Program-made: the position numbers and the translations under genes
Source: Nocardiopsis sp. JB363
GTDB lineage: Bacteria; Actinomycetota; Actinomycetes; Streptosporangiales; Streptosporangiaceae
Assembly: GCF_900143625.1 (NCBI RefSeq)
Contig: NZ_FRFF01000136.1
Coordinates: 1 to 64,000 of the forward strand
DNA: 64,000 nucleotides
Direction of reading: 5' to 3'
The notes under the pieces: generated by a model
Seen by the model: the letters and a program-made list of their open reading frames with translations, nothing else
Told to the model about the DNA's origin: nothing
The model's database searches: none
Part shown: positions 23,601-63,484 of the stretch, piece by piece
Layout: each line of letters begins with the position of its first letter
How positions within the stretch are numbered: the stretch's first letter is position 1

Positions 23601-24878
23601 ATGGAGAAAAGAGACCTCGTGACCGAACCGACCGTTGACACCAGCCGAGCCGCCGAACTCCGCAGGCAGCTCACCGAGGAGCTCAAGGCGGACGGACTGA
23701 TCCGCACGGACCCGGTCGAGAAGGCCTTCCTCACGGTCCCGCGTGAGCGATTCGCCCCGGAGGTGACCTTGGTAGAGGCCTACAAGAAGGGTGTGGTGGT
23801 CACCAAACGCGATGAGCACGGCACCACCATCAGCTCGGTTTCCGCCCCACAGATCCAGGCGACCATGCTCGAACAGGCCCGGCTGGACCAGGGAATGCGG
23901 GTAATGGAGATCGGGTCAGGCGGGTACAACGCCGCCCTGATGAGTGAACTGGTGGGACAAGACGGTGAGGTCACCACGCTCGACATCGACCCCGAGGTCA
24001 CCGACCGTGCTCGCGCCTGCCTGAAGGACGCCGGATACAACGACGTCAACGTCGTCCTGGCCGACGGTGAGGACGGATGCCCCCAGCATGCCCCCTACCA
24101 GCGGGTCATTGTCACGGTCGGAGCCTGGGACATCCCTCCCGCGTGGATCGACCAGCTCACCCCGGACGGAACTCTGACGGTTCCGCTGCGCATGCGGGGT
24201 CTGACTCGCTCGGTCACCTTCGTCCGCCAGGGTGCCCACCTGGTCAGTACCTCCGCGAAGATCTGCGGCTTCGTCAAGATGCAGGGCGCCGGCGCTCACA
24301 CCGAGCGGCTGCTTCTGCTGCGGGGGAAGGAGATCGGGCTGAGGTTCGACGACGGGGAGCCCGCCGATCCTGACCAGCTCGATGGCGTGCTGGACACCGA
24401 GCGCGCCGAGGCGTGGTCGGGGGTGGAGATCACCGCCTCGGAGCAGTTCGACACGCTCCAGTTGTGGCTTGCCACGGCTCTGGACGGGTTCTGCCTCATG
24501 AGTGTGGACCGTGCCCTGGACACCGGGGTGGTCTCTCCGCAGAACAAGCTGGCCTGCCCGGCCGTAGTAGATCGGGACAGCTTCGCTTACCTGGCCGTAC
24601 GCAAGACCGAAGCAGACGGCGTGGCCCGTTTCGAGTTCGGGGTCCACGCCTTCGGCCCCCGCGCCCACGAGCTCGCGGAGTCCATGAACGCGGCGATCAC
24701 CGCCTGGGGGCGTAGCCACCGCAGCGGATCCGTGCCACGCATCAGCTTCCACCCGGCCACTACCGACCCGAAGGACCTTCCTGAAGGACGAGTCCTGCGC
24801 AAGCAGCACGGGTCGGTCGTCATCTCCTGGTCCGACGAGGGCCAGGCCGCATCACACAACCCCGACGAAAAGGAGTAA
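23601..24878 (+). CDS. FxLD-system protein methyltransferase (PIMT-like)
   Basis: This 425-residue protein resembles protein L-isoaspartyl O-methyltransferase, with the AdoMet motif VMEIGSGGYNAALMSEL near residue 100 and SAPQIQATMLEQA ahead of it, which is the classical PIMT substrate-loop region. A C-terminal extension of about 200 residues is typical of the methyltransferases named for FxLD lanthipeptide loci. Such enzymes methylate an aspartate in the modified peptide, leading to a succinimide or isoaspartate. The precursor starts 4 bases after its stop and has an Asp-Gly in the core, a favoured site for that chemistry. GTG 23619 is an alternative start. The enzyme is the first gene of the operon. 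Confidence 0.85.
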   Translation: MEKRDLVTEPTVDTSRAAELRRQLTEELKADGLIRTDPVEKAFLTVPRERFAPEVTLVEAYKKGVVVTKRDEHGTTISSVSAPQIQATMLEQARLDQGMRVMEIGSGGYNAALMSELVGQDGEVTTLDIDPEVTDRARACLKDAGYNDVNVVLADGEDGCPQHAPYQRVIVTVGAWDIPPAWIDQLTPDGTLTVPLRMRGLTRSVTFVRQGAHLVSTSAKICGFVKMQGAGAHTERLLLLRGKEIGLRFDDGEPADPDQLDGVLDTERAEAWSGVEITASEQFDTLQLWLATALDGFCLMSVDRALDTGVVSPQNKLACPAVVDRDSFAYLAVRKTEADGVARFEFGVHAFGPRAHELAESMNAAITAWGRSHRSGSVPRISFHPATTDPKDLPEGRVLRKQHGSVVISWSDEGQAASHNPDEKE

Positions 24879-24882
24879 CCCC

Positions 24883-25050
24883 ATGGTGAACCCCCTGGCC
24901 CCCAACGCCTTCGACGACTTCACGCTCGACATCCAGGTGGTGGAGGAAGCCACCCAGCCGCTGCCCGGACTGCTCCGCAGCACCAGTGACAACTGCGGTT
25001 CCACATGCGATGGGACCGCCTGCGTGTCCTTCGCCAGCGACCCGGCCTAA
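24883..25050 (+). CDS. FxLD-family lanthipeptide precursor peptide
   Basis: This is a 55-residue precursor. The leader carries the family hallmark FTLD (residues 13-16), after an acidic start. The leader-core boundary probably follows the PLPGLLR segment (residues 26-32). The core holds three cysteines (38, 42, 47) and eight Ser/Thr residues (33, 34, 35, 40, 41, 45, 49, 52), enough for up to three lanthionine or methyllanthionine rings. Asp43-Gly44 lies between Cys42 and Cys47. AAGGAG precedes the ATG. It lies 4 bases after the methyltransferase and 92 bases before the dehydratase start chosen here. Ring pattern and cleavage site are inferred only. Confidence 0.9.
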   Translation: MVNPLAPNAFDDFTLDIQVVEEATQPLPGLLRSTSDNCGSTCDGTACVSFASDPA

Positions 25051-25142
25051 CACCGGTATCGCTCCCCGGCGGGTCCGGGCGATGCTCTCGCCCGGACCCG
25101 CCACTATCCCTGTACACAGCGAGACAGGCAGGACCCCTGCTG

Positions 25143-28100
25143 ATGGCACCGAGAGCGGACCGCACCCTGTACCACCGGGCAGGACCACCCCTGATCCGGG
25201 CCACGACCTACCCCCGGGACCTCCGATTGCCCGATGCCCCGGACCTATCAGGTGCGCCTGAGGACGCGGTCGAACAGGGGAACCGTTGGTTGAGGCACGT
25301 GTGGCGCGACGAACGCCTCCGGGGTGCCGTCCAGCACGCCAGCCCCGTTCTGTTCGAGCAGGTTGGACGGGTGGTGGCCGGGCACACCATGGACGCGCGA
25401 CGCATCCGCCGCCTGGTCCGCTCGCTGGGCTCCTACGTGCTGCGCTGGCGGGGAAGGGCCACTCCGTTCGGTCTGTTCGCCGGAGTGGCCGAGGTGAAAG
25501 CGGGCACTCAGACACGGGTGCGCTGGGGCGATGGCCACCGCACGATCGCCCGTGCTGGTGCTGACTGGCTGGAGAGAGCCGTGGACCGGCTGGAACAACA
25601 GCCCCGACTCCTGCACCTGCTGCCGGTGATCGCCAATGCCACCGCGTTCGTCCGAGACGACCGGCTCGTCATCCCCGGTCTGCCCAGCTCCCAGCGACCC
25701 AGGGAGATAGCGCCTCAAGAGGTATCGATCCGCCATACTCCGCCCGTGCGCGCCGCCATGGCAGCGGCTCAGGTTCCGTTGCTCTTCCGGGAACTCCTCG
25801 ATGCCTTGGTCGCTGAGTATCCGAACGTTCCGCGCGAACAGACCCGGTTTCTGTTGGCCGCATTGGTGGCACAGAACTTCCTGATCACCAGCCTGCGCGC
25901 CCCGATGAGTGAGCCCGACGCCCTCGCCTACCTGTGCACCCACCTGGACAAGTACGGAGCCGAGGAGCTTCCCGAGACGGCCGACATCGTCAGCGAACTC
26001 CGCGAGACCCACCGGGGCCTCGAATGCCATCGGCAGTCACCCAGTGAGGTCGGGTCGGTCGTGGACACCGTGCTGGACGCCGGCATCACCCTGCCGGAGA
26101 ACGTGTTTCGGGAAGCCGAAGCAGCCGCAGCCGCGCTGATCCGCCTGAGCCCCTACCCTTACGGCTATCCGCGGTGGAAGGACTTTCACTCCAGGTTCCG
26201 GGAACGCTACGGCCCAGGAGCCGTCATCCCGGTGGTCGAGGTCGTCTCCGATGCCGGTCTGGGTCTGCCCGCCGACTATCTCGGCTCTGCGCATACCAGC
26301 GCTCGGCCGGCCCTGACCGAGCGTGACCGGTACCTGCTCGCCCTCGCTCAAGAGGCTGCCCTCAGCGGCCGAACAGAAGTGGTCCTGACGGACAGCATGG
26401 TCGATGAGATCGCCCTGGGTGAACCACAGGAGGTGCTTGCTCCCTCCCGGGTCGAGCTCGCCTTCCAACTACACGCCCCCTCAGCAGGGGCCGTGGACCG
26501 AGGGGACTTCCGGCTTCTGGTCACCTCGGCTCCGCGACCGGGCAGCAGCATGGCCGGCCGGTTCGCCCACCTGCTGTCCGCCTCCGCGAGGTCGGGCCTC
26601 GCCGAGAGCTATACGTTTCCCGCGGAACCGGGCACGGTCACCGCGCAGCTGTCCTTTCCGCCACGTCAGCGGCGTACAGCGAACGCCGTCCGCACTTCCC
26701 GGCTCCTGCCCGTGATCATCCCCCTGGCAGAACACCACGTGCCCGGCGGTGACGTCATCGGCCTGCACGACCTCGCCCTGACCGCCGACGCGCGCCACCT
26801 CAGGCTCCTCCAGCTCTCCACCGGCCGCTACGTCGAACCACGGGTGACCCACGCGCTCGAGGCCGCCGTGCTCACACCTGCGCTGGCACGGTTCCTCGCC
26901 GAAGCCCCGACTGGTCGCTGCGCTGTCTACCAGGCCTTTGACTGGGGAGCGGCGTCATCCCTGCCCTTCCTGCCCCGCCTTCGACGCGGGCGTACCGTCC
27001 TGGCCGCTGCCCGGTGGAGGCTGAGTACGGACAGCCTCCCCGGCCCAGGTGCGCCGAACTCTGCCTGGGTGAAGGCGTTGAGCACCTGGCGGGAGCGCCT
27101 GGGGGCGCCCACGGAGGTCGTCATGTGCAGCGCGGAAATGCGCCTCCCCCTGAACCTGGATCGCCCGCTGGACCGCGAGGTGCTACGGGCACGGCTGGAG
27201 CGCACCAGCACCGTCGAACTCCGTGAAGGACCCTCCCCGGACTCCAACGGATGGTTAGGACGCGCCCACGAAATCCTCGTCCCCTTCCACCACACGGCCG
27301 CCGACCCTCCACTGAAGACCGAGCGACCGAGCACGCCCGTCACACCGTCAGAACAGGGGAAGCTACCGGGGTTCTCCGACGTGGTCCACGCACAGATCCA
27401 CGGACATCCCGCTCGCCAGGACACCATCCTCCTGCGCCACCTGCCGGACCTGGTCAACGAGTGGCCGGAGCTGCACTACTGGTGGTTCGAACGACACCAC
27501 GACCTCACCCACCCCGACCGAGACCAACACCTCGCCCTGTACTTCCGCCTGCGCTCGGAGCGGGGGTACGGCGACGCCGTCACCCGGATCGGAGCCTGGG
27601 CTGCCACTCTTCGCAGCCATGGCCTCGTCCCGCACTTCCAACTGGCCACCTACCACCCGCAGACCGGACGCTACGGCCACGGAACGGCCATGAGCGCCGC
27701 TGAACGGCTCTTCGCCGCGGACTCCGCAGCAGCCCTGGCCCAAGCGGCGTACACCGCACAGGCGGGTACTCCCGGGGAGGTGGTCACCGTCGCCGGAATG
27801 TACGACCTCGCCACCTCCTACACCCCCAACGCCCGGGAGGCCGTCGAATGGCTCGTCGACCATCTCCCCCACGAAGCACCAAAGCTCGACCGCGTCGTGC
27901 GGGACCAGGCACTGCACCTTGCAGATCCCGACAAGAGCCGAGAAGCACTCCAGGCGCTGCCCACCGGGCAGGAAGTGCTCCGGGCCTGGCAGCACCGACG
28001 CACCGCCTTGAGCGACTACCGTGCCCGCCTGGCCTCCCAGCGTGACCCCGAACCGGTGCTGCGCTCCCTGCTGCACCTGCACCACACCCGCGCACTCGGC

Positions 28101-28184
28101 GCCGACCCGCAGCGCGAACAACTCACCCACCACCTCGTCCGCGCCGCCGCCCAGCGCGACCTCGCCAGGAAGACCACACGATGA
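25143..28184 (+). CDS. LanB-type lantibiotic dehydratase
   Basis: This protein of about 1013 residues dehydrates Ser and Thr of the precursor through tRNA-dependent glutamylation and elimination. The N-terminal part has IRRLVRSLGSYVLRWRGRATPFGLFAG, split here into IRRLVRSLGSYVLRW and RATPFGLFAG, the usual start of the glutamylation domain. The C-terminal part (about residues 740-1010) is a SpaB_C elimination domain with HYWWFERHHD and LALYFRLRSERGYG. The frame is open from 25005 but would overlap the precursor, so ATG 25143 is preferred. The stop overlaps the LanC start (ATGA). Together with LanC this makes a class I lanthipeptide pathway. Confidence 0.9.
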   Translation: MAPRADRTLYHRAGPPLIRATTYPRDLRLPDAPDLSGAPEDAVEQGNRWLRHVWRDERLRGAVQHASPVLFEQVGRVVAGHTMDARRIRRLVRSLGSYVLRWRGRATPFGLFAGVAEVKAGTQTRVRWGDGHRTIARAGADWLERAVDRLEQQPRLLHLLPVIANATAFVRDDRLVIPGLPSSQRPREIAPQEVSIRHTPPVRAAMAAAQVPLLFRELLDALVAEYPNVPREQTRFLLAALVAQNFLITSLRAPMSEPDALAYLCTHLDKYGAEELPETADIVSELRETHRGLECHRQSPSEVGSVVDTVLDAGITLPENVFREAEAAAAALIRLSPYPYGYPRWKDFHSRFRERYGPGAVIPVVEVVSDAGLGLPADYLGSAHTSARPALTERDRYLLALAQEAALSGRTEVVLTDSMVDEIALGEPQEVLAPSRVELAFQLHAPSAGAVDRGDFRLLVTSAPRPGSSMAGRFAHLLSASARSGLAESYTFPAEPGTVTAQLSFPPRQRRTANAVRTSRLLPVIIPLAEHHVPGGDVIGLHDLALTADARHLRLLQLSTGRYVEPRVTHALEAAVLTPALARFLAEAPTGRCAVYQAFDWGAASSLPFLPRLRRGRTVLAAARWRLSTDSLPGPGAPNSAWVKALSTWRERLGAPTEVVMCSAEMRLPLNLDRPLDREVLRARLERTSTVELREGPSPDSNGWLGRAHEILVPFHHTAADPPLKTERPSTPVTPSEQGKLPGFSDVVHAQIHGHPARQDTILLRHLPDLVNEWPELHYWWFERHHDLTHPDRDQHLALYFRLRSERGYGDAVTRIGAWAATLRSHGLVPHFQLATYHPQTGRYGHGTAMSAAERLFAADSAAALAQAAYTAQAGTPGEVVTVAGMYDLATSYTPNAREAVEWLVDHLPHEAPKLDRVVRDQALHLADPDKSREALQALPTGQEVLRAWQHRRTALSDYRARLASQRDPEPVLRSLLHLHHTRALGADPQREQLTHHLVRAAAQRDLARKTTR

Positions 28185-29338
28185 GCGCCCAGACCGCAAC
28201 CCCCACCGCACAATCCCAGTCCCTGGCCACGGGCACCATCGGCACCGCACTGATGCACATCGAGCACGCCCACACCGGCGAAGGAAGCTGGGAGAGGGCC
28301 CACACCCAGGTCCACAAAGCGGCCGCAGACCCGGTCAGCGCGGCAGACGAAGCATGCCTGTACTTCGGAGCCCCCGCACTGGCGTTCGTCCTGCACACGG
28401 CCCAAGCCGACGGAGCGCCCCGCTACGCTGCGGCGACAGAGCGCATCGACACGGCGGTGAGGCGCCTCGCCCACCGCCGACTCGACCTCGCCCACGCCCG
28501 GATCGACAGGGCACAACCCGCGGCCTTCGCCGAATACGACCTCCTGCACGGACTGACCGGGATCGGCGCCCACCTGCTCCACCACGACCCCGCCGATGAC
28601 GTGCTCGGACGCATCCTCACCTACCTGGTCCGCCTCACTCGACCTCTGGTCATCGATGGGCGGAGACTCCCCGGCTGGTGGGTCCACCACGACCCCCAGC
28701 GTGGAACCTCCGCCCACTTCCCCGGCGGCCACGCCAACCTCGGGATCGCCCACGGCATCACCGGCCCGCTCACCCTCCTCGCCCAAGCCCAGCTACGCCA
28801 GATCACCGTCGATGGGCAGAGCGAGGCCATCGAGCTCATCTGCGCGTGGCTGGACTCCTGGCGTAGCGAAAACGACACCGGCACCTGGTGGCCACAGTGG
28901 ATCACCTCCCAAGAGCTGCGCAACAGTCGAACCGACCAGAGCGGACCGCAACGCCCCAGCTGGTGCTACGGCACACCCGGCCTGGCCCGAGCCCAACAGC
29001 TCGCCGCCCTCACCACCGCAGACACCGACCGCCAACGCATGGCCGAACAGGCCTTCGCCGACTGCCTCGCCGACCCCAACCAGCTCGCCCGCGTTCACGA
29101 CCCCGGCCTCTGCCACGGCTGGGCCGGTCTAACGCAGACCGCGAACCGCACCGCCACCGACGCGCTCACCCCGGCAATCGCCCACCACCTGCCGTTCCTG
29201 AACGACCGCCTCGACCAGGAACAAGCAGACACAGAAGGGTTTCTCGACGGACAGGCGGGAGTCACCCTGGCCCAGATGACCGCAACTCAAGGCTTGCCCC
29301 CGGTCACCGGGTGGGATGCCTGCCTGCTGATCAACTGA
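28181..29338 (+). CDS. LanC-type lanthionine cyclase
   Basis: This 385-residue protein has a LanC-like alpha-toroid. The zinc ligands are visible as SWCYGTPG (Cys262) and LCHGW (Cys311, His312), both with the usual surroundings. The fold markers GLTGIGAHLLHH and AHGITGPLTLLAQ follow the expected repeat spacing. It adds cysteine thiols to dehydroalanine or dehydrobutyrine in the LanB product, forming the thioether rings. It overlaps LanB by four bases and is followed by the SpaB_C gene after 33 bases. Confidence 0.9.
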   Translation: MSAQTATPTAQSQSLATGTIGTALMHIEHAHTGEGSWERAHTQVHKAAADPVSAADEACLYFGAPALAFVLHTAQADGAPRYAAATERIDTAVRRLAHRRLDLAHARIDRAQPAAFAEYDLLHGLTGIGAHLLHHDPADDVLGRILTYLVRLTRPLVIDGRRLPGWWVHHDPQRGTSAHFPGGHANLGIAHGITGPLTLLAQAQLRQITVDGQSEAIELICAWLDSWRSENDTGTWWPQWITSQELRNSRTDQSGPQRPSWCYGTPGLARAQQLAALTTADTDRQRMAEQAFADCLADPNQLARVHDPGLCHGWAGLTQTANRTATDALTPAIAHHLPFLNDRLDQEQADTEGFLDGQAGVTLAQMTATQGLPPVTGWDACLLIN

Positions 29339-29371
29339 CCCGCCCCGTACCTAAGGAAGGAGAACAACGCC

Positions 29372-30361
29372 GTGGAAATCTCCGACACCGGGCATCCACT
29401 CGCCCAAGGAGTTCTCGACGTGCTCTCCGGGACCCCACCGGAGAGCGCCGCCTTCCGTGCCGGAGTGGAAACGGACCACCTCGAGGAGGCAGTCCAGGCC
29501 TACACCGAAGCGGGCGCCACCGCCCTCCAGATACAGGCCCAAGAGCACGGCTGGCACCAGGTCCACATCGAGTTCACCGACTGGCGGACGGCCGAAACCA
29601 CGGTGACCGAACGACTCACACCCCGACTCCATCACGCCGAACAGTCAGGACTCGTGGACTCCTGGTGGTTCATCCGCAAAGCGCCTTGCTGGCGACTGCG
29701 CTTGCGGCTCAGTGACACCACCACTCCCGGCGACGACCTGCTCAAACGAATCCTCGACGGCTTCTCCACTCCAGAGGCCGTCATCCGTTGGCGACGAACC
29801 GTCTACGAACCCGAAACCCTCGCCTTCGGCGGACCCGAAGCGATGCACACCGCCCACGACCTCTTCCACACCGACAGCCGCGCGATCCTCGACTACCTCA
29901 ACGCACACGCGACCGTCCTCGGCCGCCGCGAGCTGTCGACGATGCTGTGCGGCGCTCTTTTCCGAGGCGCGGGCCAGGACGAGTTCGAGCAAGGCGACAT
30001 CTGGCACCGCATCGCGCGGATGCGTCCCCTCCCCGAGGACGTTCCGCCTGAGCGCATGCCAGAACTGAGCGTCCCCCTGCGCCGGCTCCTCACCGCCCAC
30101 CACCCCACGCAATCCCCGGACAACCCCTTGGCGTTCACCGTGCCTTGGATACTCGACTTCGCCTCCGCCGGACGAGCACTGTCCCAAGCTGCGCACGCCG
30201 GAACCCTCCAACGCGGCCTACGCGCCGTCCTGGCCCACCACGTGATCTTCCACTGGAACCGAATCGGCCTAACCGCACGCACCCAGAGCATCCTCGCCCA
30301 CGCAGCCCGCACCGCACTGATGGACACCGAACCGGGACCCTCACAAGGGACCAGATGCTGA
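29372..30361 (+). CDS. Stand-alone SpaB_C (thiopeptide-type bacteriocin biosynthesis) protein
   Basis: This 329-residue protein is made of a SpaB_C-like domain: WHQVHIEFTDW at the start, SWWFIRKAPCWRLRLRL near residue 95 and a helical C-terminus containing LRAVLAHHVIFHWNRIGL. In FxLD and thiopeptide loci such proteins accompany a LanB. Some catalyse elimination or cyclisation, others have unclear roles. Because the upstream LanB already has its own C-terminal elimination domain, this is a second copy of the domain and may act at another residue or step. GTG 29372 is chosen because AAGGAAGGAGAAC precedes it. Confidence 0.8.
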   Translation: MEISDTGHPLAQGVLDVLSGTPPESAAFRAGVETDHLEEAVQAYTEAGATALQIQAQEHGWHQVHIEFTDWRTAETTVTERLTPRLHHAEQSGLVDSWWFIRKAPCWRLRLRLSDTTTPGDDLLKRILDGFSTPEAVIRWRRTVYEPETLAFGGPEAMHTAHDLFHTDSRAILDYLNAHATVLGRRELSTMLCGALFRGAGQDEFEQGDIWHRIARMRPLPEDVPPERMPELSVPLRRLLTAHHPTQSPDNPLAFTVPWILDFASAGRALSQAAHAGTLQRGLRAVLAHHVIFHWNRIGLTARTQSILAHAARTALMDTEPGPSQGTRC

Positions 30362-53907: not shown

Positions 53908-54428
53908 CTTCTCTTTCCTCACTCCCTTCTCCTTCCCTCTTCTCTCCCCTCCCCAAAAACCAAAAAACCACCCTATAAACAAATCTAATAACATTCCTTT
54001 GGGCTGTGGTGATCGCCCAGATCAGTGTCGCTCATACATTTCATGATCGCCCAAAATCGCGTCGCCCATGCTCGTCGCCGGCCCCTCGCGCGCGTAGGCG
54101 CGTGTGCGCGATTCCTTCTCTGGAAAACGCGCGCCGAAAAAAGTTCTCGAGAAACCCGTGATCCGTGTTGACAAACACGGGTCACGGAAGTTGCTATGGG
54201 GTTGTTCCCGAAACGGCAACACGGTTCCGGGGTGACGGGAAGAATTTCCCGCGACACGAGTTGACAAACACGTGTCACCCAAGATCACCTAGGGTTCGCC
54301 ACCGAAACACATGACGTTTTCGGGGCGGCGGAAAAAGTTTCGCGAAACGAGTTGACAAACACTAGTCAACCAAGCGAAACTCGGGCCGAAAAAGAGAAAC
54401 ACCCGGCCATTATAAGGGGGGTCAAAGA
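53908..54428. promoter_or_regulatory. AT-rich control region with three palindromic boxes
   Basis: The AT-rich stretch at 53930-54010 leads into three boxes. TTGACAAACACGGGTCA lies at 54168-54184, TTGACAAACACGTGTCA at 54261-54277 and TTGACAAACACTAGTCA at 54352-54368, spaced 93 and 91 bases. Each is an inverted repeat TGAC/GTCA around the centre. Sequence between the boxes is also partly repeated, so the whole is a threefold degenerate repeat. TTGACA also fits a -35 box. It may be an operator set, a replication or transfer origin, or a partition site. No protein gene is seen before 54429. Confidence 0.7.
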
Positions 54429-54734
54429 ATGCGCACATTGCGCGCAACCTACATTATCGGGAAATGGGTATTCACCCGCCCGAAGCCGGCCTCGCCGGCG
54501 GTGATCGCCAACCGGGCCCGAGCCCAACGGGCGACCCGGGTCGCAGCCGACCACCGCGAAGCGATCGCCCGCGAGTTGGCCGCACGCGGTAGGGCCATGC
54601 ACCTGTACCGCACCGAAGGACCCAGCGAGGCCGCCCTTCAGGCGCAACGGGAACACGAACGGGCCGAGTTGTACCGGGCCGGACTCGAGATCACCTTGTT
54701 CCGGCTGCGCGCGCACCGGATCGTGCCGGCCTAG
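54429..54734 (+). CDS. Small basic hypothetical protein
   Basis: This 101-residue protein starts at ATG 54429, 60 bases after the last palindromic box. It is basic and mostly alpha-helical by composition (RARAQRATRVAADHREAIAR, then LQAQREHERAELYRAGL). No known domain. It is followed by a strong hairpin and then the first of four related genes, so it is the first gene of the control-region-driven set. It could be an autorepressor, but nothing in the sequence proves DNA binding. Confidence 0.6.
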   Translation: MRTLRATYIIGKWVFTRPKPASPAVIANRARAQRATRVAADHREAIARELAARGRAMHLYRTEGPSEAALQAQREHERAELYRAGLEITLFRLRAHRIVPA

Positions 54735-54860: not shown

Positions 54861-55496
54861 GTGAGCACGAGTATGCCTCACAAGCGGCGTCCGATCGAAG
54901 TCACCGCCGACCAGGTGGCCTACCTGCGCCACGCCGAACCCGGCAGCCTGCTGGTCTGGATCGAGGCCAGCAACGAGGTTCAGATCTACGGACCCACCGG
55001 ACGGCTAGGCGAGCACCGGATGATCATCGCTTCCCAGGACGCCCTGGACAGCCTCGCGGAGAACTGTGAAGAGAGTGGCAGGCCCACCCATGACGGGGAA
55101 CTGGCGAAGGACCTGACCGATATCGCCAACGACTGGCTGTGCGAGTGGCCCCAGGTGCGGGCCTTGACCCCGATGCTCACGCCGATCCGCCGGCGCCTGG
55201 ACCGACAAGGCATCTACCCGGCCGACAGTGTCCACACCTTCGGGCCGAACATCGGCCACAGGTTCAACCTGCCGGTCGTCACCGATACCTACGCTCGCCC
55301 CGACGGCAAGGCCCTTGCCAGGGTCACGGTACCGCTCGGCTTCGCCGAACCGGTGCACATCCAGGCCAGCGGCGTGAACGGGCCGCTGAGCGAACACACC
55401 ATGCAGTTCGACTACCTGCACATGCGCGCCGCAGATATCGAGGCCACGATCGCCACCACGGTCGCCGCCCACCTGGCCCTGTACTACCAGGACTGA
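54861..55496 (+). CDS. Paralogue family member A, unknown function
   Basis: This 211-residue protein is the first of four neighbouring genes that seem related: an early PGSLLVWIEASNEVQIYGP segment, a central long helix region (ANDWLCEWPQVRALTPMLTP), then a beta-rich end with TYARPDGKALARVTVPLG. GTG 54861 follows AGGAGTG. No known domain, signal peptide or catalytic motif is visible. It is a cytoplasmic protein by appearance. It is followed by the terminator-palindrome cassette that recurs ahead of B, C and D. Confidence 0.65.
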   Translation: MSTSMPHKRRPIEVTADQVAYLRHAEPGSLLVWIEASNEVQIYGPTGRLGEHRMIIASQDALDSLAENCEESGRPTHDGELAKDLTDIANDWLCEWPQVRALTPMLTPIRRRLDRQGIYPADSVHTFGPNIGHRFNLPVVTDTYARPDGKALARVTVPLGFAEPVHIQASGVNGPLSEHTMQFDYLHMRAADIEATIATTVAAHLALYYQD

Positions 55497-55512
55497 GCCA
55501 CAGCCACCTTCC

Positions 55513-55580
55513 GGGCCGCCCTGTCACGGGGCGGGGCGGCCCCTCACCCAGACCACATGCGCCGAGCGCTGAGTTCGGCC
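55513..55580 (+). promoter_or_regulatory. Terminator-palindrome cassette 1, ahead of gene B
   Basis: GGGCCGCCC (55513) pairs with GGGCGGCCC (55534-55542). After 16 bases an imperfect palindrome, GCGCCGA with TTCGGCC, occupies 55559-55580. It ends 20 bases before the start codon of gene B, leaving room only for the ribosome site. Cassettes 2 and 3 have the same order. Confidence 0.75.
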
Positions 55581-55600
55581 TGCCATGAAAGGACCCGGTT

Positions 55601-56200
55601 GTGACACCGACCTGGCCGCAGCACACCATCACCGTGCCCATGCTCACCGACCTGCACGAAAGCGGACCCGCAACGTTGATCACCGCACACGGGGCCCTAG
55701 CGTCCTACCGGGTGCAGCGCACCCGTGAGGTGGATCTGAACACCCCCGGGCTGGTCATCGCCTACGGACACGACGACCTGCGCTTGGACCTGATCGAGCA
55801 CGACGGCGACTGGGACCGGGTGGCCGCTGCGGCCACCAGCGCTGCCGCCAAGGCCCATCACCGGCTGTTCTTCCAGCCCCCGAGCCGCCTGGCTCGGGCG
55901 GTGCGGCGCGACCTGCACCGGCACGGTCTGCTCCTGGACTGCCGCCCCGAGGCCAGCCGTACCGAAGACGGCGCTTACCGGTGGGACGACTATCTCACCT
56001 GGGAGCACGACCCCCGGTTGAGCTTCACGATGACCTACGTCCAGCGCCATCGCGACAGCTTGCTGATCAGCTTGGCCATGTACGACCGGGACTACTACGT
56101 GACCTGCTGGCCTGAGCGAACCACCGCCACCAGTGGCACCCCGGCCTGCGTACGCGAAGCACCCGCACGCATCCAACGCCACCTGGACCTGCGGCCCTAA
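55601..56200 (+). CDS. Paralogue family member B, unknown function
   Basis: This 199-residue protein begins ITVPMLTDLHESGPATLITA and has the family layout: an early GP-LI-A strand, an acidic YGHDDL segment, a helix with RLARAVRRDLHRHGLLLD, then SRTEDGAYRWDDYL and a beta-rich tail. It matches gene D in the same order of features (TGPGALIIA, YAYGDL). No catalytic or binding motif known to me. Start GTG 55601, 20 bases after cassette 1. Confidence 0.65.
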   Translation: MTPTWPQHTITVPMLTDLHESGPATLITAHGALASYRVQRTREVDLNTPGLVIAYGHDDLRLDLIEHDGDWDRVAAAATSAAAKAHHRLFFQPPSRLARAVRRDLHRHGLLLDCRPEASRTEDGAYRWDDYLTWEHDPRLSFTMTYVQRHRDSLLISLAMYDRDYYVTCWPERTTATSGTPACVREAPARIQRHLDLRP

Positions 56201-56214
56201 ACACCGCATACCCC

Positions 56215-56281
56215 GGGGCCGCCCCGTCGCGGGGCGGCCCCACCACCCACACACCTTCGCGCCGAACGCTGTATTCGGCGC
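56215..56281 (+). promoter_or_regulatory. Terminator-palindrome cassette 2, ahead of gene C
   Basis: A perfect 11-bp hairpin, GGGGCCGCCCC with GGGGCGGCCCC and loop GTCGC (56215-56241), is followed by a perfect 8-bp inverted repeat, GCGCCGAA with TTCGGCGC, loop CGCTGTA (56259-56281). It is the best-preserved copy. Gene C starts 22 bases later. Confidence 0.78.
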
Positions 56282-56302
56282 ACCCTAAGAAAGGCACACA
56301 CC

Positions 56303-56974
56303 GTGACTGAACGCTCACCTCGTCTGCGCAAGGCGATGGCCGACTACTTCGACTACTCCGAGGTCACCTCGCACATGTTGTGCACCTTGGGCTGGGTCGG
56401 GCCGGGCGGGATGATCATCGCTGACTTTCGCCACCGCGAGTTCCGAGTAACCCACGCCCCCGACCACGGTGACGGGCTGATCTTGCCGGTATTCGGTTAC
56501 GGCGACCTCATCAAACACCACGACTGCATCGATGTGCACTACGGCACCTGGGACGAGTTCGTCACAGCGGTCGACTGCACCGCTTATGAGTGCATGGCCG
56601 AGCGCATCGAGGACCGCAACGCCACCCCATACGCACTCATCCGGATGCGCCAGCGCCTGCAGGAGCTCGGGTTCGATATGACCACCGCGCCCTCCTACCA
56701 CCGCCGCTACCTGGACCCGGGTGATTACCGGGGCCCCTCGGTCCTGCAGGTCAGGGAGAGCTACATCGACCGGGCGCACCCGCACCTGGAAGTGACCCTC
56801 AAACACCCCCTCCCTGAAGGGGACGAGAAGCCCGGGTTCTCGGTGATCAAGATCGCCGACCTCGGACGCCATGTCACCGGCTGGCCCAAGAAAATCCCCC
56901 AGCAGTTCGTCGCCGGCATGCAGGTCCACCTGATCCGGGAGCGGGTCGACGCGCACCTGGCCCGCACCAACTGA
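56303..56974 (+). CDS. Paralogue family member C, unknown function
   Basis: The 223-residue protein has the family layout: GWVGPGGMIIADFRHREFRV, VFGYGDLIKHHD, then a helical MRQRLQELGFDM segment and a beta-rich YIDRAHPHLEVTLKHPLPEG end. It is the longest of the four. No known domain or motif. GTG 56303 follows AAGAAAGG. It is flanked by cassettes 2 and 3, which suggests separate or attenuated transcription. Confidence 0.65.
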   Translation: MTERSPRLRKAMADYFDYSEVTSHMLCTLGWVGPGGMIIADFRHREFRVTHAPDHGDGLILPVFGYGDLIKHHDCIDVHYGTWDEFVTAVDCTAYECMAERIEDRNATPYALIRMRQRLQELGFDMTTAPSYHRRYLDPGDYRGPSVLQVRESYIDRAHPHLEVTLKHPLPEGDEKPGFSVIKIADLGRHVTGWPKKIPQQFVAGMQVHLIRERVDAHLARTN

Positions 56975-56991
56975 CCCCACCTCGCTTCACC

Positions 56992-57055
56992 GGGCCGCCC
57001 TGTCACGGGGCGGGGCGGCCCCCACACCCACCTGCGCCGAGACCTGTATTCGGCG
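56992..57055 (+). promoter_or_regulatory. Terminator-palindrome cassette 3, ahead of gene D
   Basis: GGGCCGCCC (56992-57000) pairs with GGGCGGCCC (57013-57021), the same hairpin as cassette 1. The palindrome GCGCCGA...TTCGGCG follows at 57034-57055. Gene D starts at 57076 after AGGAAGGA. Confidence 0.75.
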
Positions 57056-57075
57056 TACCCACAGGAAGGACATGT

Positions 57076-57708
57076 ATGGACATCCACCGTTCGCTCGCCC
57101 AGAGGCTGGCCGATCAGCACATCACCACCGACCTCCTACAACAGCTCGCCTCGACCGGGCCCGGGGCTCTGATCATCGCCAACAGGAAAGCCGGCGAGTA
57201 CCGCCTCACCCACCACCGCTACCTGCGTCCCACCCAAGGGGAGACGGTCGTCTACGCCTACGGCGACCTGACCCACGACTGGGACACCGCCCTGTTGATC
57301 AGCCCGCACGACCCCTGGGACCACATCACCCAGGCAGCCAACACCCTCGCGCACACCTGCCTGGAATGGCAGCCCTGGGAACCCATCACCTCAACACGAC
57401 GCCACTTCCAAGGACAACTCCGCCAAGCGATGTTCGAGCAGGGCTTCCTGCTCCTGCGCCGACCGATGTTCACCGACCGAGGTGGGATGCACCGCCTGGA
57501 CGACACCTACCTGGACACGACCCGGCCAGAGATCACGATCACCATCGCCGTGCCCTACCCCGAACCGGACAGGGGCAGCCCGATCATCACCTGGTGCACC
57601 CGCCGGGGCGTGTTCCAAGGCTGCACCCGATCGAACAGCGGCCAAGGTGCCCGCCCGTTCGCCCAGGACGTACGCACGAACATCACCCGAGTCTTCGACC
57701 AGCGCTGA
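57076..57708 (+). CDS. Paralogue family member D, unknown function
   Basis: This 210-residue protein is the clearest match to B: STGPGALIIANRKAGEYRLT, YAYGDLTHDW, LRQAMFEQGFLLLRRPMF, then DDTYLDTTRPEITITIAVPY and a basic end. Start ATG 57076 with AGGAAGGA 5 bases upstream. Its stop is followed by a strong terminator (57716-57741) and then the wHTH gene. Related genes occur only here in the window, so the set expanded within the element. Confidence 0.65.
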   Translation: MDIHRSLAQRLADQHITTDLLQQLASTGPGALIIANRKAGEYRLTHHRYLRPTQGETVVYAYGDLTHDWDTALLISPHDPWDHITQAANTLAHTCLEWQPWEPITSTRRHFQGQLRQAMFEQGFLLLRRPMFTDRGGMHRLDDTYLDTTRPEITITIAVPYPEPDRGSPIITWCTRRGVFQGCTRSNSGQGARPFAQDVRTNITRVFDQR

Positions 57709-57715
57709 CCCTCAC

Positions 57716-57741
57716 CGCCCCGACCCGGGTGGGTCGGGGCG
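57716..57741 (+). terminator. Terminator after gene D
   Basis: A perfect 11-bp stem, CGCCCCGACCC with GGGTCGGGGCG, with the four-base loop GGGT. It lies 8 bases after the gene D stop. Confidence 0.8.
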
Positions 57742-57767: not shown

Positions 57768-58550
57768 ATGACCACTACCCGTGTACCCGCACCCGACCTG
57801 ATCATGGCCGCACTGACCCAAGCCACCACCCCGGTGACCGTAACCGAACTGGCCGAGGAAGCAGGGGTGGGACGGTCCACCGTGTCCAAGTACCTGCCCA
57901 CCCTGGAGAAGAACGGGGCTGCACTGCGCACCCCCGGAGGGCGGGAAGGACGACGTCGCCTGCCCGACCAGTGGCAGGCCGCACCAACGACCTCGCCCGA
58001 ACAGGAGTCGAGCGCTCCCGATGACCTCGAGGACCCCGACACCGTACCTGCCACCACGGTCGAGGTCACTGTCTGCGAGCAGCAGGTGAGCTCGACCTCG
58101 GTTGACATCGGTGAAACGCAAACGCAGGACCCGATCGAAAAACCCGCCCCCGAGACCGAGTGCCCGAACACTGGCCAGGTTCCCGCACCCGCCCCTGGTC
58201 CTCGCTTGGCCGATACCGCTCCGGTGCCGGTACCGACCTCGAGCGCACCTGCGCCCCGGACCAGCACCACACCGGTACGGGACCCTGCCCCCACCGGCAC
58301 GGATGAGCAGGCCCTGAACCCGATCAGCCGGTCGCGTCGGCTCGCGCCGGGAGAGCTCAAGACCATGGTCTGGGCCCTGCTCAAGAACTCCCCGGGTGAG
58401 GAGTTCACCGCCACCGCCCTCAGCCACATTCTCCAGGGGCGTTCCATCGGAGCTATCCAGAACAACCTCGCCAAGCTCGCTGAAGAGAACAAGATCGAGC
58501 TGGCCTGCGCCAAACCGCGCCGGTACCGGTTCGCCACCTCGGCCAACTGA
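57768..58550 (+). CDS. DNA-binding protein with two winged-helix domains
   Basis: This 260-residue protein starts at ATG 57768 after AAGGAGAG. The N-terminal winged helix (TPVTVTELAEEAGVGRSTVSK, split as VTVTELAEEAGV and GRSTVSKYLPTLEKNG) and a second one near the C-terminus (ATALSHILQGRSIGAIQNNL, then YRFATS) are joined by a 130-residue Pro/Thr-rich acidic linker. Such proteins bind two DNA sites at once. Lying directly after the paralogue set, it is a candidate regulator for the palindromes in cassettes 1-3 or the boxes at 54168-54368. Confidence 0.75.
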   Translation: MTTTRVPAPDLIMAALTQATTPVTVTELAEEAGVGRSTVSKYLPTLEKNGAALRTPGGREGRRRLPDQWQAAPTTSPEQESSAPDDLEDPDTVPATTVEVTVCEQQVSSTSVDIGETQTQDPIEKPAPETECPNTGQVPAPAPGPRLADTAPVPVPTSSAPAPRTSTTPVRDPAPTGTDEQALNPISRSRRLAPGELKTMVWALLKNSPGEEFTATALSHILQGRSIGAIQNNLAKLAEENKIELACAKPRRYRFATSAN

Positions 58551-58622: not shown

Positions 58623-59009
58623 GTGCTCGATCTCGTCTACCCATACCTGGCCTCACCTCTTTCCGGTCTGTCCTGCGGGCAGGCTTTGACAGGGGCCTTG
58701 GCCCTGAACGGGGCAAGCGCGCTGATCGTCCTGCTGGGCACCCTCAGCCGAACCCACCGCCTGCTGCAGACCTACTACGTACGCGGGGACTGGCCCGGCA
58801 TGGTGCACCACACCGAGAAGGGGCCCGGCACGGTGTGCGGGGCGTGCGGGCACCACCTGGCCGTGCACGACCGCTTTACCGGCCGATGCTGTTACGGCAC
58901 CCCGATGGAACTACTCGCGGTGTGCATCGCCCTGCCCCTACCCCGCAGGATGCGCGCCCTGGTGCAACAGCCGGGTTGTGCGTGCCGGCTCCGTGCCTGG
59001 AGGTGTTGA
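58623..59009 (+). CDS. Small membrane protein with Cys-rich zinc-like motif
   Basis: This protein has about 128 residues. GTG 58623 is chosen, in the frame that follows TAGGGAG. A membrane helix (ALALNGASALIVLLGTL) is followed by TVCGACGHHLAVHDRFTGRC, a C-x2-C...C-C zinc-ribbon-like motif, and a C-terminal CACRLRAWRC. It is probably a small inner-membrane protein with a cytoplasmic zinc knob. Function unknown. It is followed by an exceptionally strong terminator. Confidence 0.55.
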   Translation: MLDLVYPYLASPLSGLSCGQALTGALALNGASALIVLLGTLSRTHRLLQTYYVRGDWPGMVHHTEKGPGTVCGACGHHLAVHDRFTGRCCYGTPMELLAVCIALPLPRRMRALVQQPGCACRLRAWRC

Positions 59010-59027: not shown

Positions 59028-59083
59028 GGTGAAGGTCCCCGGCCCCGACCCAGACACCTGGGTCGGGGCCGGGGACCTTCACC
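59028..59083 (+). terminator. 25-bp perfect hairpin terminator
   Basis: The arms 59028-59052 and 59059-59083 are perfect complements over 25 bases with a six-base loop (GACACC). ACCTTTTCCC follows, giving a short T-run. It separates the small Cys-rich gene from the methyltransferase unit. Confidence 0.85.
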
Positions 59084-59107: not shown

Positions 59108-59962
59108 GTGTCGAATCTCGGGGGCGGGGTGTGTTTCTCACCAAGTGAAGGGCGAAACACGACCGAGAGGGGACTCGCCTTGGGGAACACCCCACACACT
59201 GCCGCCTCCTACCACGACCGGGGCCGGCCGCCGTTGGCGGTCTGGCCCTGCGCACCCAGTACCCGACACCGGCCACCTCGCGATCACGATGGCGAGGTGG
59301 GCATCCCGGACCGGCTCGCCCACCGTTTGGTGGCCGAGTACACCCGCCCCGGTCACAAAGTCGCGGATCTGACCGGCACCGGTCAGGTGGCCGAACAGGC
59401 CCGGGCCCAGGGCCGTGACCAGGAGAACCTCAGTCCTACGTTGGATGCCCCGGGCGCGACCGCGGCCATCGACTACGAGATGGCGTGGGCGGATCTGACC
59501 GTGGCAACCATGACCACTCCGACCTTTTGTGTGACCTCGGCGGGAAGCCGGCGCCGCCGTGCGCGCGCCAAGGTGGAGTTCGCCGCGCTGATCACCCGCC
59601 CCGGGGGCATCGTCGCGGTCATCACTCCGGTGAGGTGCACCCCGTCCGGGGTGGTGGACCCGGCCCCGGGGGTGGTGCGCGCCGCTACCTGTGCGGGGTT
59701 GGTGTACCTGCAGCACGTGATCGCGTTGACGGTGCCGATCTGCGAGCAGGGTCTGGGCGCCACCATCCCGGTACGCGGCCAGGGCGGGCTCGGTCCCGAT
59801 CAGGACCCCGGAGCAGGGGGAGAGGAGAACGAGGTGGGTTTGCCGACCTCGGTTTCCGATGCGGCGGCCACCATCACCTCACCGGCTCACCTGAACGTGT
59901 CGGTGTTCCGCAAGAAGGGACGCACCGCGCCCGCGGAAACCCAGGGGGAGGTGGACGCGTGA
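59108..59962 (+). CDS. Catalytically degenerate DNA-methyltransferase-like protein
   Basis: The protein has up to 284 residues; GTG 59108 is uncertain because its purine-rich upstream lies too close. The central part has the methyltransferase motif I (PGHKVADLTGTGQVAEQA) and the strand RPGGIVAVITPVRC in the place of the next gene's APGGVVVVTTRPYR. The catalytic TSPPYG is replaced by TMTTPTFC. A final SPAHLNVSVFRKKG also matches the last strand of its neighbour. It therefore looks like an inactive paralogue that could bind and assist the active enzyme. It overlaps that gene's start (GTGA). Confidence 0.65.
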   Translation: MSNLGGGVCFSPSEGRNTTERGLALGNTPHTAASYHDRGRPPLAVWPCAPSTRHRPPRDHDGEVGIPDRLAHRLVAEYTRPGHKVADLTGTGQVAEQARAQGRDQENLSPTLDAPGATAAIDYEMAWADLTVATMTTPTFCVTSAGSRRRRARAKVEFAALITRPGGIVAVITPVRCTPSGVVDPAPGVVRAATCAGLVYLQHVIALTVPICEQGLGATIPVRGQGGLGPDQDPGAGGEENEVGLPTSVSDAAATITSPAHLNVSVFRKKGRTAPAETQGEVDA

Positions 59963-60954
59963 ACCAGGACCAGAACAGCGCTGACCTCGACAATGTGAGG
60001 TTCGACCAGGACGCACCGGGTGGGCAGCGTGAGAGCGGCGAGGGCGCCGACCGTGGCACCGGCACCGGTGCCCATACGGGGTGGTCGGTGTGGTTCACCG
60101 GCCAGCAACAGGCCCAGCGTCAGCGTGGGATCCGGTATTCGCGGTTGTCGGTGGAACATCCGGCCAAGATGCTGCCGGAGATCGCCCGCCATGCCATCAC
60201 CGCCTATACCCGGCCGGGGGATGTGGTGCTGGATCCGATGTGCGGGATCGGTACCAGCCTGGTCGAAGCCGCCCACCTCGATCGTCGCGCGGTGGGGATC
60301 GAGTTGGAGCCCAAGTGGGCTTCCATCGCCCGGCTGAACCTGGAAACCGCCACCGTCCAGGGAGCGCGTGGTGAAGGACGCGTGTATACGGGGGAGGGGG
60401 CCCAGGTCGCCACTGAACTGGCGGCCACCTCATTGGCCGGAGAGGTGCGGCTGGTGGTGACCTCGCCCCCATACGGGGCGATGACCCACGGCCAGGTCCG
60501 CTCCCGCCGGGACGGGGCCCGCGCGGTGGAGAAGTACGCGCACCGCTACTCCCGAGACCGGGACCGCCGGGCGGCCAACCTCGCCTACCAGCGCCCCGAG
60601 AAGCTCGCGGACTCCTTCACACAGATAATGGCGGCCTGCCGCACCCTGCTCGCCCCGGGCGGGGTGGTCGTGGTGACCACCCGCCCCTACCGCAAGAACG
60701 GGGAACTCTTCGACTTCCCCGGGCAGGTCGCCGAAGCCGGACGGCGGGCGGGGCTGGTGCAGGTGGATCGGTGCGCCGCTCTGTTGTGCGCGGTGCGCGA
60801 CGGTCAGGTGGTCTCGCGCACCTCGTTCTTCCAACTCATCGAAACCCGCCGATTGCGCAAGGCCGATTGGCCGGTGCACATCATCCAGCACGAGGACGTA
60901 CTGATCTTCACCAACCCCGACCAGCACACCTTGGATGGAAGGGCGGCGGCGTGA
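59959..60954 (+). CDS. DNA methyltransferase with SPPY motif (N4-cytosine or N6-adenine)
   Basis: This 331-residue enzyme has a clear AdoMet motif VVLDPMCGIGTSLVEAA (residue 92 region), the next strand GIELEPKW, and the catalytic TSPPYGAM (about residue 167). The strand APGGVVVVTTRPY completes the fold. The order is that of beta-class (N4-cytosine or N6-adenine) DNA methyltransferases. No restriction endonuclease is adjacent, so it may protect the element from host restriction or mark it for control. GTG 59959 overlaps the previous stop. Confidence 0.85.
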   Translation: MNQDQNSADLDNVRFDQDAPGGQRESGEGADRGTGTGAHTGWSVWFTGQQQAQRQRGIRYSRLSVEHPAKMLPEIARHAITAYTRPGDVVLDPMCGIGTSLVEAAHLDRRAVGIELEPKWASIARLNLETATVQGARGEGRVYTGEGAQVATELAATSLAGEVRLVVTSPPYGAMTHGQVRSRRDGARAVEKYAHRYSRDRDRRAANLAYQRPEKLADSFTQIMAACRTLLAPGGVVVVTTRPYRKNGELFDFPGQVAEAGRRAGLVQVDRCAALLCAVRDGQVVSRTSFFQLIETRRLRKADWPVHIIQHEDVLIFTNPDQHTLDGRAAA

Positions 60955-61358: not shown

Positions 61359-61702
61359 CCCGTCGGCCCCGGTGGGGGACAGGCCAGCCGGGGTTGCCGG
61401 GTGTGACATCCGGGTGGGGGCGGTGTGGGGCCACCAGCGGCCCCACACCGCCCTGAACTACCCGGCCCCGCCCAAGGGAGCGGAACCCGGGGGAGCGGGC
61501 CTACACGGGGCCGGTGGTGGCCCCGACCAGCGAAAACGGCAAACCGCCCGTATCGGATGGCGGGCGGGTGGCGGAGGGAAAATCCGGTGGGCTTGTTGAC
61601 GAATCCGCTTGCACTTCTCGGCGAGGTCGAGCGTGGATGCGTGGTGCCCCGCACCGTGCGGGGCCGCGCACCGCAAACGTGCAGATCAGAGGTGGTGGGG
61701 AG
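61359..61702. terminator. Intergenic region with a 15-bp perfect hairpin (61418-61453)
   Basis: GGGCGGTGTGGGGCC at 61418-61432 pairs perfectly with its complement at 61439-61453 around ACCAGC. This is a strong terminator for the methyltransferase unit. The rest of the gap carries no evident gene. It should hold the promoter of the excisionase-integrase pair. Confidence 0.75.
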
Positions 61703-61990
61703 GTGGGGCAGGTGAGGTCGGATGTTCCGGTTCGGTTGGACGAGGTGGGGTCGTTGCCGGTGGTGTTGGACCCGGTTGCGGCTGGGCGGATGCTCGGTTT
61801 GGGTCGCACCACCACCTACCGGCTCCTGCGCCAGGGGGCCTTCCCCGTGCCGGTTCACCGGACCGGCAGGTCCTGGAAGATCCCCACCGCGGGGGTTCTG
61901 GCCCACCTGGGCCTGACCACACCTTCCACCTCGGGTGGCTGTGCACGGTGTGGTGTGCGCGGTGACCACCGCAAGGAGGGGGAGTCGTAG
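61703..61990 (+). CDS. Excisionase-like helix-turn-helix protein
   Basis: This protein has about 95 residues, starting at GTG 61703 (GTG 61712 also possible). LDPVAAGRMLGLGRTTTYRL followed by GAFPVPVHRTGRSWKIPT is the MerR/excisionase-type winged helix. Its stop is immediately followed by the integrase ATG, so the two genes are strictly coupled. Such proteins direct excision by bending the attachment site. A C-terminal GCARCGVRGDH motif might bind metal. Confidence 0.8.
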   Translation: MGQVRSDVPVRLDEVGSLPVVLDPVAAGRMLGLGRTTTYRLLRQGAFPVPVHRTGRSWKIPTAGVLAHLGLTTPSTSGGCARCGVRGDHRKEGES

Positions 61991-63484
61991 ATGGCTTCTC
62001 ACCAGGGACGAGTGTTCAAACGCTGCGGATGTCGGGATGAGAACTCCGGTCGGGCGTTGGGGGTGCGGTGTCCGAAGCTGCGCCGCCAGGGCGGGGCGTT
62101 CAACCCCCGCCACGGTGACTGGGGTTACCAACTCGAACTACCCCGAGCCAGTGGGGGAAAGCGTCGTCAGGCCCGCCGCACCGGACTGGACAGCCAGGAA
62201 CAGGCGTGGGAGGTGCTGGACCATCTCAAGGCTCTGCTGGAGTTGGCCGAAGGGGAAGGAGAGGTGGAGGTGCAGATCGCCGACCTGATCCAGAACGCGC
62301 TCAAAGACCGAACCCGCTTCCCCTCGGTCGAGGAGGTGCGCAAGCGTCTGGGGACAGGGGCGGATGTGCGCAAGGAAGCCCCCACCGTGGGGGCCTACCT
62401 GAAGGCGTGGATCCAGGCGAAGCCGGATCTGGCCGAGGGCACCCGCGCCTCCTACCAGGGGCACATCCGTAAATACCTGATCCCGCACTTGGGCAAGGTG
62501 CGGTTGGACCGGCTCACCTCACGCCAGGTCGAGGCGATGTTCGACTCCATCGAGGCCGACAACGTCCACATCCTGGAATGCCGAGAGTCCGAGGATGCGA
62601 AGGTGCGGGCCTCGGTCCGCAATCAGCGGGTGGTCTCGCTGTCCACTAAGCACCGAATCCGCGCCACCTTGCGCAGCGCGCTCTCGGACGCGGTACGCAA
62701 CCCCGAGGAGCCGGTGAACATCAACGCGGCCTCCCACGCGAGGTTGCCGTCATGTCCGAGGAAGAAGCCGTTGGTGTGGACCCCGGGCCGGGTCCGTCAG
62801 TGGGAGAAGGACGGCACCATCCCGGGGGAGGTGATGGTGTGGACTCCTGAGCAGACCCGCACCTTCCTCACCCATGCGCGGAAGTACGTGTGGTTGCACC
62901 CGCTGTTCCACCTCATCGCCGTCAAAGGATTGCGTCGAGGTGAAGCGGTGGGCCTGCCCTGGTCGAACACCCGCCTCACCGATGGAGAGGCTGATATCCG
63001 TACCCAGGTGGTGCAGCTGTCCTGGCAGACCTTCACCTCTACTCCGAAGAGCGAGGCGGGCCAGCGCACCATCACCCTGGACACCGACACGGTGAAAGTG
63101 CTGCGGGGGTGGAAGAAGTTCCAGAACCAGGCCCGGCTCCAGGCGGGGCCGGAGTGGTCGGGTTCGGGGTTGGTGTTCACCCGCCAGGACGGGCAGGGGT
63201 GGCACCCCTCGCATGTGAGTGACTGGTTCGCCCGCATCGCGCGAGCGGCCGGACTCCCGCCGATCACGTTGCACGGGCTCCGCCACGGGGCGGCCTCGAT
63301 GGCCCTGGCGGCGGGAACGGACGTGAAGGTGGTCTCGGCCGAGTTGGGCCACTCCACGACCCATTTCACGCAGGACACCTACCAGACGGTGTTTCCCGAG
63401 GTGGCCAAAGCAGCGGCGGAGGCGACCGCCGCGTTGCTGCGAGGAACTTCGTCCCAGGTGAGCAATCTGGCCCCGGTGCGGTAG
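61991..63484 (+). CDS. Tyrosine recombinase (integrase)
   Basis: The 497-residue protein has an N-terminal zinc-like CGCRDENSG region, an arm-binding domain (LIPHLGKVRLDRLTSRQVEA) and a catalytic domain with Arg in KGLRRGEAVGLPWS, HGLRHGAASMAL and the last Tyr in DTYQTVFPEV. All catalytic residues are present, so it should be active. It is the last gene of the element. It is preceded directly by the excisionase-like gene, the arrangement typical of actinomycete integrative elements. The attachment site could not be seen downstream. Confidence 0.9.
   Translation: MASHQGRVFKRCGCRDENSGRALGVRCPKLRRQGGAFNPRHGDWGYQLELPRASGGKRRQARRTGLDSQEQAWEVLDHLKALLELAEGEGEVEVQIADLIQNALKDRTRFPSVEEVRKRLGTGADVRKEAPTVGAYLKAWIQAKPDLAEGTRASYQGHIRKYLIPHLGKVRLDRLTSRQVEAMFDSIEADNVHILECRESEDAKVRASVRNQRVVSLSTKHRIRATLRSALSDAVRNPEEPVNINAASHARLPSCPRKKPLVWTPGRVRQWEKDGTIPGEVMVWTPEQTRTFLTHARKYVWLHPLFHLIAVKGLRRGEAVGLPWSNTRLTDGEADIRTQVVQLSWQTFTSTPKSEAGQRTITLDTDTVKVLRGWKKFQNQARLQAGPEWSGSGLVFTRQDGQGWHPSHVSDWFARIARAAGLPPITLHGLRHGAASMALAAGTDVKVVSAELGHSTTHFTQDTYQTVFPEVAKAAAEATAALLRGTSSQVSNLAPVR

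Follow-up and report, generated by a model that had tools for sequence, protein, structure and literature searches.

A gene array with structured gaps, probably an exchangeable part of one operon, in conjugative elements of Nocardiopsis

The 64-kb stretch of Nocardiopsis sp. JB363 DNA analyzed here (hereafter, the window) contains several ICE hallmarks (Phage_integrase, Replic_Relax, TrwB_AAD_bind/TraG-D_C and P-loop_TraG matches), and its predicted gene content identifies the element as a conjugative ICE of Nocardiopsis. The element is ordered as T4SS and Tad genes, a gene designated A, one to four genes of types B, C and D, a winged-helix regulator, methylase, excisionase and integrase. Genes on the T4SS side encode VirB4-like, TrbL-like (weak match) and coupling proteins and a Replic_Relax protein; between the latter and the gene array lie a Tad-type ATPase gene, TadF- and TadE-like genes and a gene encoding an OmpA-BTAD protein. 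A T4SS-like set (TrbL, VirB4, coupling protein) is found combined with Tad-pilus genes and an OmpA-BTAD protein at 32964-53640 of the window. Further upstream of the T4SS, at 23601-30361, the window also contains lanthipeptide-type genes, encoding a PCMT methyltransferase, two lantibiotic dehydratase-type proteins and a LanC-like protein. The array and its downstream neighborhood comprise the following features.

54157..54385, +: control region, direct repeat AGTTGACAAACnC..CCAAG present three times at intervals of about 92 bp (repeat search)
54429..54734, +: conserved small ORF of 101 aa that opens the probable operon (tblastn, 50-63% in 12 related loci)
54861..55496, +: gene A, 211 aa, acidic; single copy in every Nocardiopsis array, without h2 in front
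55513..55542, +: h1 after A, a GC hairpin without T-run
55559..55579, +: h2 before B, a leader hairpin (GCCGA..TTCGGC; covariance model)
55601..56200, +: gene B, 199 aa
56215..56241, +: h1 after B
56259..56281, +: h2 before C (covariance model)
56303..56974, +: gene C, 223 aa; no other B/C/D lineage is as widespread
56992..57021, +: h1 after C
57033..57057, +: h2 before D (covariance model)
57076..57708, +: gene D, 210 aa, in some elements only
57716..57741, +: h1-type hairpin after D, without h2 ahead of the regulator
57768..58550, +: winged-helix regulator with linker and conserved C-terminal domain, preceding the TM gene (Pfam HTH_11/HTH_IclR; kept in all loci)
58623..59009, +: small protein that has Cys pairs and is hydrophobic at its N-terminus, with an inferred start codon (sub-threshold NCBIfam RGCVC hint; 16 loci)
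59029..59082, +: perfect stem of 25 bp with a T-rich tail behind it, probably the operon terminator (sequence; median 24-bp stem in 16 loci)
59108..60954, +: pair of neighboring methylase-like ORFs (N6_N4_Mtase match, weak in the first and with E 5e-17 in the second)
61514..63484, +: excisionase-like HTH ORF and tyrosine integrase, with which the element ends

Gene and gap positions, from the start of A at 54861 to the end of D at 57708, agree with the initial annotation of this DNA. The arrangement points to an operon, probably composed of the small ORF, A, one to four B/C/D genes, the winged-helix regulator and the small membrane protein, whose probable limits are the triple-repeat control region (54157-54385) on one side and the stem at 59029-59082 on the other. 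The AGTTGACAAACnC..CCAAG copies are 45-nt direct repeats, present three times in the window at distances of 91-93 bp, and each contains a TTGACA hexamer; in every Nocardiopsis element examined, one to three such copies, spaced 91-94 bp apart, precede A. Despite the TTGACA hexamers, a sigma-70 consensus scan recognized no promoter in this region. At the opposite end, the stem following the small membrane gene is 25 bp long in the window and typically 24 bp in 16 loci, with a T-rich tail. Since the upstream repeats are shared and one strong terminator follows the gene after the regulator, common control of the array, as originally proposed, appears likely. Binding of the winged-helix regulator to the AGTTGACAAACnC..CCAAG repeats is at this point a guess.

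The products of the four array genes had been described as diverged paralogues of no known family, and both parts of this description hold. B, C and D are paralogues with pairwise protein identities of 25-30% (blastp E 1e-3 to 4e-14; shuffle z 8-19). Gene A has no detectable pairwise relationship to B-D (shuffle z < 1.5) and is joined to their family at the profile level, through an hhalign match over 188 columns (E 3e-6) and HMM cross-hits. AlphaFold models were made of A (pLDDT 86.9) and C (pLDDT 91.4), with B and D placed by sequence homology to C. Rather than being unrelated, the two models agree, displaying a common order of helix, three strands, helices, antiparallel sheet and long C-terminal helix. 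A-D can thus be assigned to a single undescribed protein family, by sequence for B-D and by profile and predicted structure for A, in which sequence comparison delineates B, C and D as stable orthologous lineages across elements. Searches with A-D yielded no meaningful match in Pfam, NCBIfam, PADLOC or PDB sequences, nor in PHROGs for B-D; Foldseek searches of PDB and BFVD with the models of A and C returned no match with E<=0.001; and literature searches retrieved no description of arrays of this kind.

The family was detected in 15 of 40 Nocardiopsis genomes, some with two elements each. Including the window, there are 19 distinct Nocardiopsis arrays (18 further loci, with L044 treated as a duplicate of L043) that share the same layout and vary in gene number. 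Every one of them has one A, always in first position, followed by one to four B/C/D genes, bearing out the anticipated variation in copy number among related elements. Arrays related to these are also present in other genera of the bacterial family; none was found outside that family in a class-wide sample, and no relatives were found in plasmid, phage and viral-contig searches. The array gaps of L043 and L044, which come from two different Nocardiopsis (genomes G208 and G215), are identical, suggesting recent transfer of the element. One further locus, L061 (NYMS01000041.1), is titled Glycomyces fuscus TRM 49117, yet its contig (G209) is placed in Nocardiopsis, possibly reflecting a misnamed or contaminated assembly.

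The A-B, B-C and C-D gaps measure 104, 102 and 101 nt, and B, C and D are each preceded by h1, then h2 and then a ribosome site; h1, but not h2, also follows D. As initially reported, the gaps are more alike than the genes, with 68-75% likeness in the window (52% for shuffled gaps) versus the 25-30% of the B-D proteins. They are similar rather than identical, as had been stated, since the identical sequence is limited to the 30-nt h1 of gaps A-B and C-D. In all sister elements examined the gaps are likewise conserved and structured, and not random. Perfect h1 stems have a median length of 7.5-12 bp after A-D and of 12 bp after the regulator; the corresponding values are 4-6 bp behind the btad, tad, methylase, xis and int genes of the element and 5 bp at random places. 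The first reading of h1 as a canonical terminator is not borne out: the 10 nt downstream of the h1 stem contain 0.2-1.2 T and a terminator scan of the region listed none of the h1 hairpins, leaving the terminator label unproven. In actinobacteria, termination at such a hairpin without a T-run may occur.

The second hairpin, h2, has the consensus GCGCCGAGCGCTGTGTTCGGCGC and is sited before B, C and D; it is absent before A and usually absent before the regulator, with L055 and L057 as exceptions. Searching the 64-kb window with a covariance model of h2 identified exactly three sites (E 1e-7 to 2e-11), the next match having an E-value of 0.5. Across the 40 Nocardiopsis genomes, all 46 model matches with E<1e-3 fall in array gaps, as do 16 of 16 pattern matches at <=1 mismatch, all on the gene strand. 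Within this genus sample, h2 is exclusive to array gaps. In 39 aligned gaps, 89.5% of stem cells are paired (25-49% in sliding controls), five of the nine pairs have changed on both sides, and there are 11 double-change cells as opposed to 3.3 in shuffles (0/500); this covariation shows the predicted stem to be maintained by compensatory change. No gap matched an Rfam family at the curated threshold, the best being nhaA-I on the minus strand (E 0.3), below the gathering score. Arrays of other genera keep the form of h1 with a different sequence and are missing h2, which points to h1 as the older and general part and to h2 as a Nocardiopsis addition that is not required for the arrangement as such.

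Comparison of individual elements revealed conspicuous disparities in amino-acid identity along the array. The window and L043 share a backbone at 80-90%, but A and B at 41 and 54%; L042 and L043 share C at 94%, but A and B at 35 and 56%; and L013 and L042 share A and B at 88 and 92%, but C at 66%. For L051 and L050 the values are 66 (A), 92 (B), 68 (C) and 89% (D), and for L046 and L047 they are 95 (A), 94 (C) and 66% (integrase). Judged by these identities, modules are shown to re-assort both against the backbone and against each other. The clearest instance of gene-content change is provided by L052 and L054, two elements of one genome, of which L054 is without B. The A-C gap of L054 equals the A-B gap of L052 through h1, with an identical left part, and thereafter the B-C gap of L052, which demonstrates that B was lost by a crossover in the linker between h1 and h2. 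Taken together, gene-content changes in gaps and re-assortment identify h2-RBS-ORF-h1 as the module formed by each B/C/D gene and as the unit of exchange. Ends of in-array alignments lie within gaps or <=30 nt from them in 58 of 64 cases (39 of 44 distinct), versus 23% expected by length, although this count is inflated because the gaps are repeats, which alignments naturally tend to traverse. Of the five breakpoints that fall inside genes, three are located mid-B. In gene B of L042, L043 and L013, similarity begins mid-gene, near base 290, so exchange can occur inside ORFs too.

The reading that we consider best overall, with a probability of about 0.6, is that the array constitutes the variable part of one ICE operon, made up of swappable cytosolic-protein modules with their own hairpins. 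Both hairpins would function at the mRNA level: h1 would protect the 3' end of each cistron or cause partial termination there, and h2 would form the 5' leader of the cistron that follows, such that each module would carry its own expression signals and work wherever it is inserted. Modules would be exchanged through homologous recombination in the repeated gaps, and on the sequence comparisons above it is by the swap of whole modules that diversity arises.

The main competing explanation invokes ordinary, old tandem duplications of genes together with their spacers, with spacer likeness resulting from selection on mRNA-stability hairpins, gene number from chance loss, and no diversity selection or role in transfer. 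Gap likeness is 0.723 at orthologous positions between elements versus 0.693 within a locus, indicating that gaps descend with their genes and are not homogenized; this agrees with tandem duplication, as does the stability of the B, C and D lineages, and led us to reject concerted evolution of the gaps within a locus. Likewise, dN/dS values for A-D are mostly 0.2-0.5, like those of the regulator, membrane gene, methylase and small ORF of the same elements (L049/L050 values of 1.36 for A and 0.79 for D are single, unreliable outliers). The fast protein change suggested by the initial annotation is contradicted by these values and by the stable lineages, and faster-than-background evolution was accordingly rejected. 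However, the re-assortment of modules and the deletion joining two gaps at the linker amount to more exchange than simple descent would produce, and we regard tandem duplication as a rather unlikely explanation.

A different role for h2 would be that of a DNA operator bound by the winged-helix regulator, each gene having its own promoter behind a terminator. The hairpin is indeed palindromic and array-specific, and the regulator gene adjoins the array, but the spacer between half-sites varies from 3 to 11 nt and G-U pairs are frequent, both of which fit an RNA structure better than a double-stranded DNA operator. Moreover, the loop side is asymmetric and always in gene direction, and the approximately 20 nt between h1 and h2 offer scant room for a promoter, none being recognized there, making the operator explanation improbable.

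More speculatively, the h1-linker-h2 gap could be a dedicated recombination site, folded while the element is single-stranded during transfer, with integron-like shuffling of a new host-takeover family as cargo. In integron gene-cassette arrays, ORFs stand in tandem with a structured, strand-asymmetric repeat behind each, and whole modules are exchanged. The arrays described here resemble them in their units of ORF plus structured repeat and in whole-module exchange; no integron integrase was seen, and the one recombinase noticed in the vicinity is the tyrosine integrase of the element itself. The seam of the one clear event is the linker between the hairpins, which fits homologous recombination, and we deem the dedicated-site explanation highly improbable.

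The earlier suggestion that A-D are entry-exclusion or variable surface proteins, for which variable genes within a conjugative element would be natural candidates, is scarcely credible given the lack of any membrane-length hydrophobic segment in A-D (maximum 19-residue hydropathy 0.57-1.15) and the soluble character of the predicted folds.

Within the swappable-module reading, the models suggest instead that the A-D products are soluble, cytosolic proteins and possibly dimers. Products of gene A are acidic (pI 4.8-5.8), and those of B-D average a pI near 7. The best structural matches in VIA-align were 3aae for A (Z 8.5, 3.0 A over 94) and 4l9h for C (Z 9.0, 2.7 A over 100). Both proteins best match the arrangement of actin capping protein CapZ and the FP domain of Fbxo7/PI31, at <10% identity and with no function transferable, and the Z-scores of 8-9 are barely above the level reached by unrelated models, so this likeness hints at dimerization at most. 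On that topology, A might perhaps be paired with a B/C/D partner. Weak, sub-threshold Foldseek matches included PsiB, T7 Gp1.2 and immunity proteins, and no database match pointed to an anti-defense or other function for A-D. The position of a variable gene set beside a terminal regulator and methylases would be in keeping with establishment or anti-defense factors matched to the host; this is the weakest step of the explanation and we put it forward tentatively, as somewhat doubtful.

The closest known arrangement, in terms of layout, is the EGeRS1 regulon of pLS20-family plasmids, in which mosaic establishment genes, arranged in several units, lie behind repeated, GC-rich and highly structured non-coding sequences (PMC8708921). 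Both systems place a conserved structured sequence ahead of several variable genes in a conjugative element, and no strong promoter was found in the EGeRS1 tested, upstream of ardC (PMC8708921). EGeRS1 sequences are 400-600 bp long and precede separate operons of unrelated genes, including the known ardC, whereas the gaps analyzed here span about 100 nt and lie between genes of a single protein family within one probable operon. Furthermore, no known anti-restriction or establishment factor was found among A-D, and the methylases adjoin the array instead of lying within it; filing the arrays as an EGeRS regulon would be wrong, because no known establishment factor is among their genes. Leading-region anti-defense islands, where variable small genes and methylases cluster together on conjugative elements (PMC11541004), also resemble the arrays in combining such genes, but no A-D member matches a defense-related family.

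Conjugative elements often carry variable gene sets of unknown function and mode of exchange. Here, for an undescribed family conserved throughout a group of ICEs, one can see the exchangeable unit with its boundaries, a leader hairpin specific to the arrays, and exchange events that took place in nature; related elements gain, lose and exchange modules, probably to fit different hosts. If the array genes do act in establishment or anti-defense, a defined family and natural module swaps would become available for testing what determines the host range of actinobacterial ICEs.

A deviation from the usual layout was observed in L056, where C and the regulator lie in one open frame (2688-4283), the C stop being lost and h1 and the regulator RBS and ATG being kept. 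A fusion of C to the regulator was considered and set aside, as the frame appears to reflect a lost stop codon, with the regulator retaining its own RBS and ATG.
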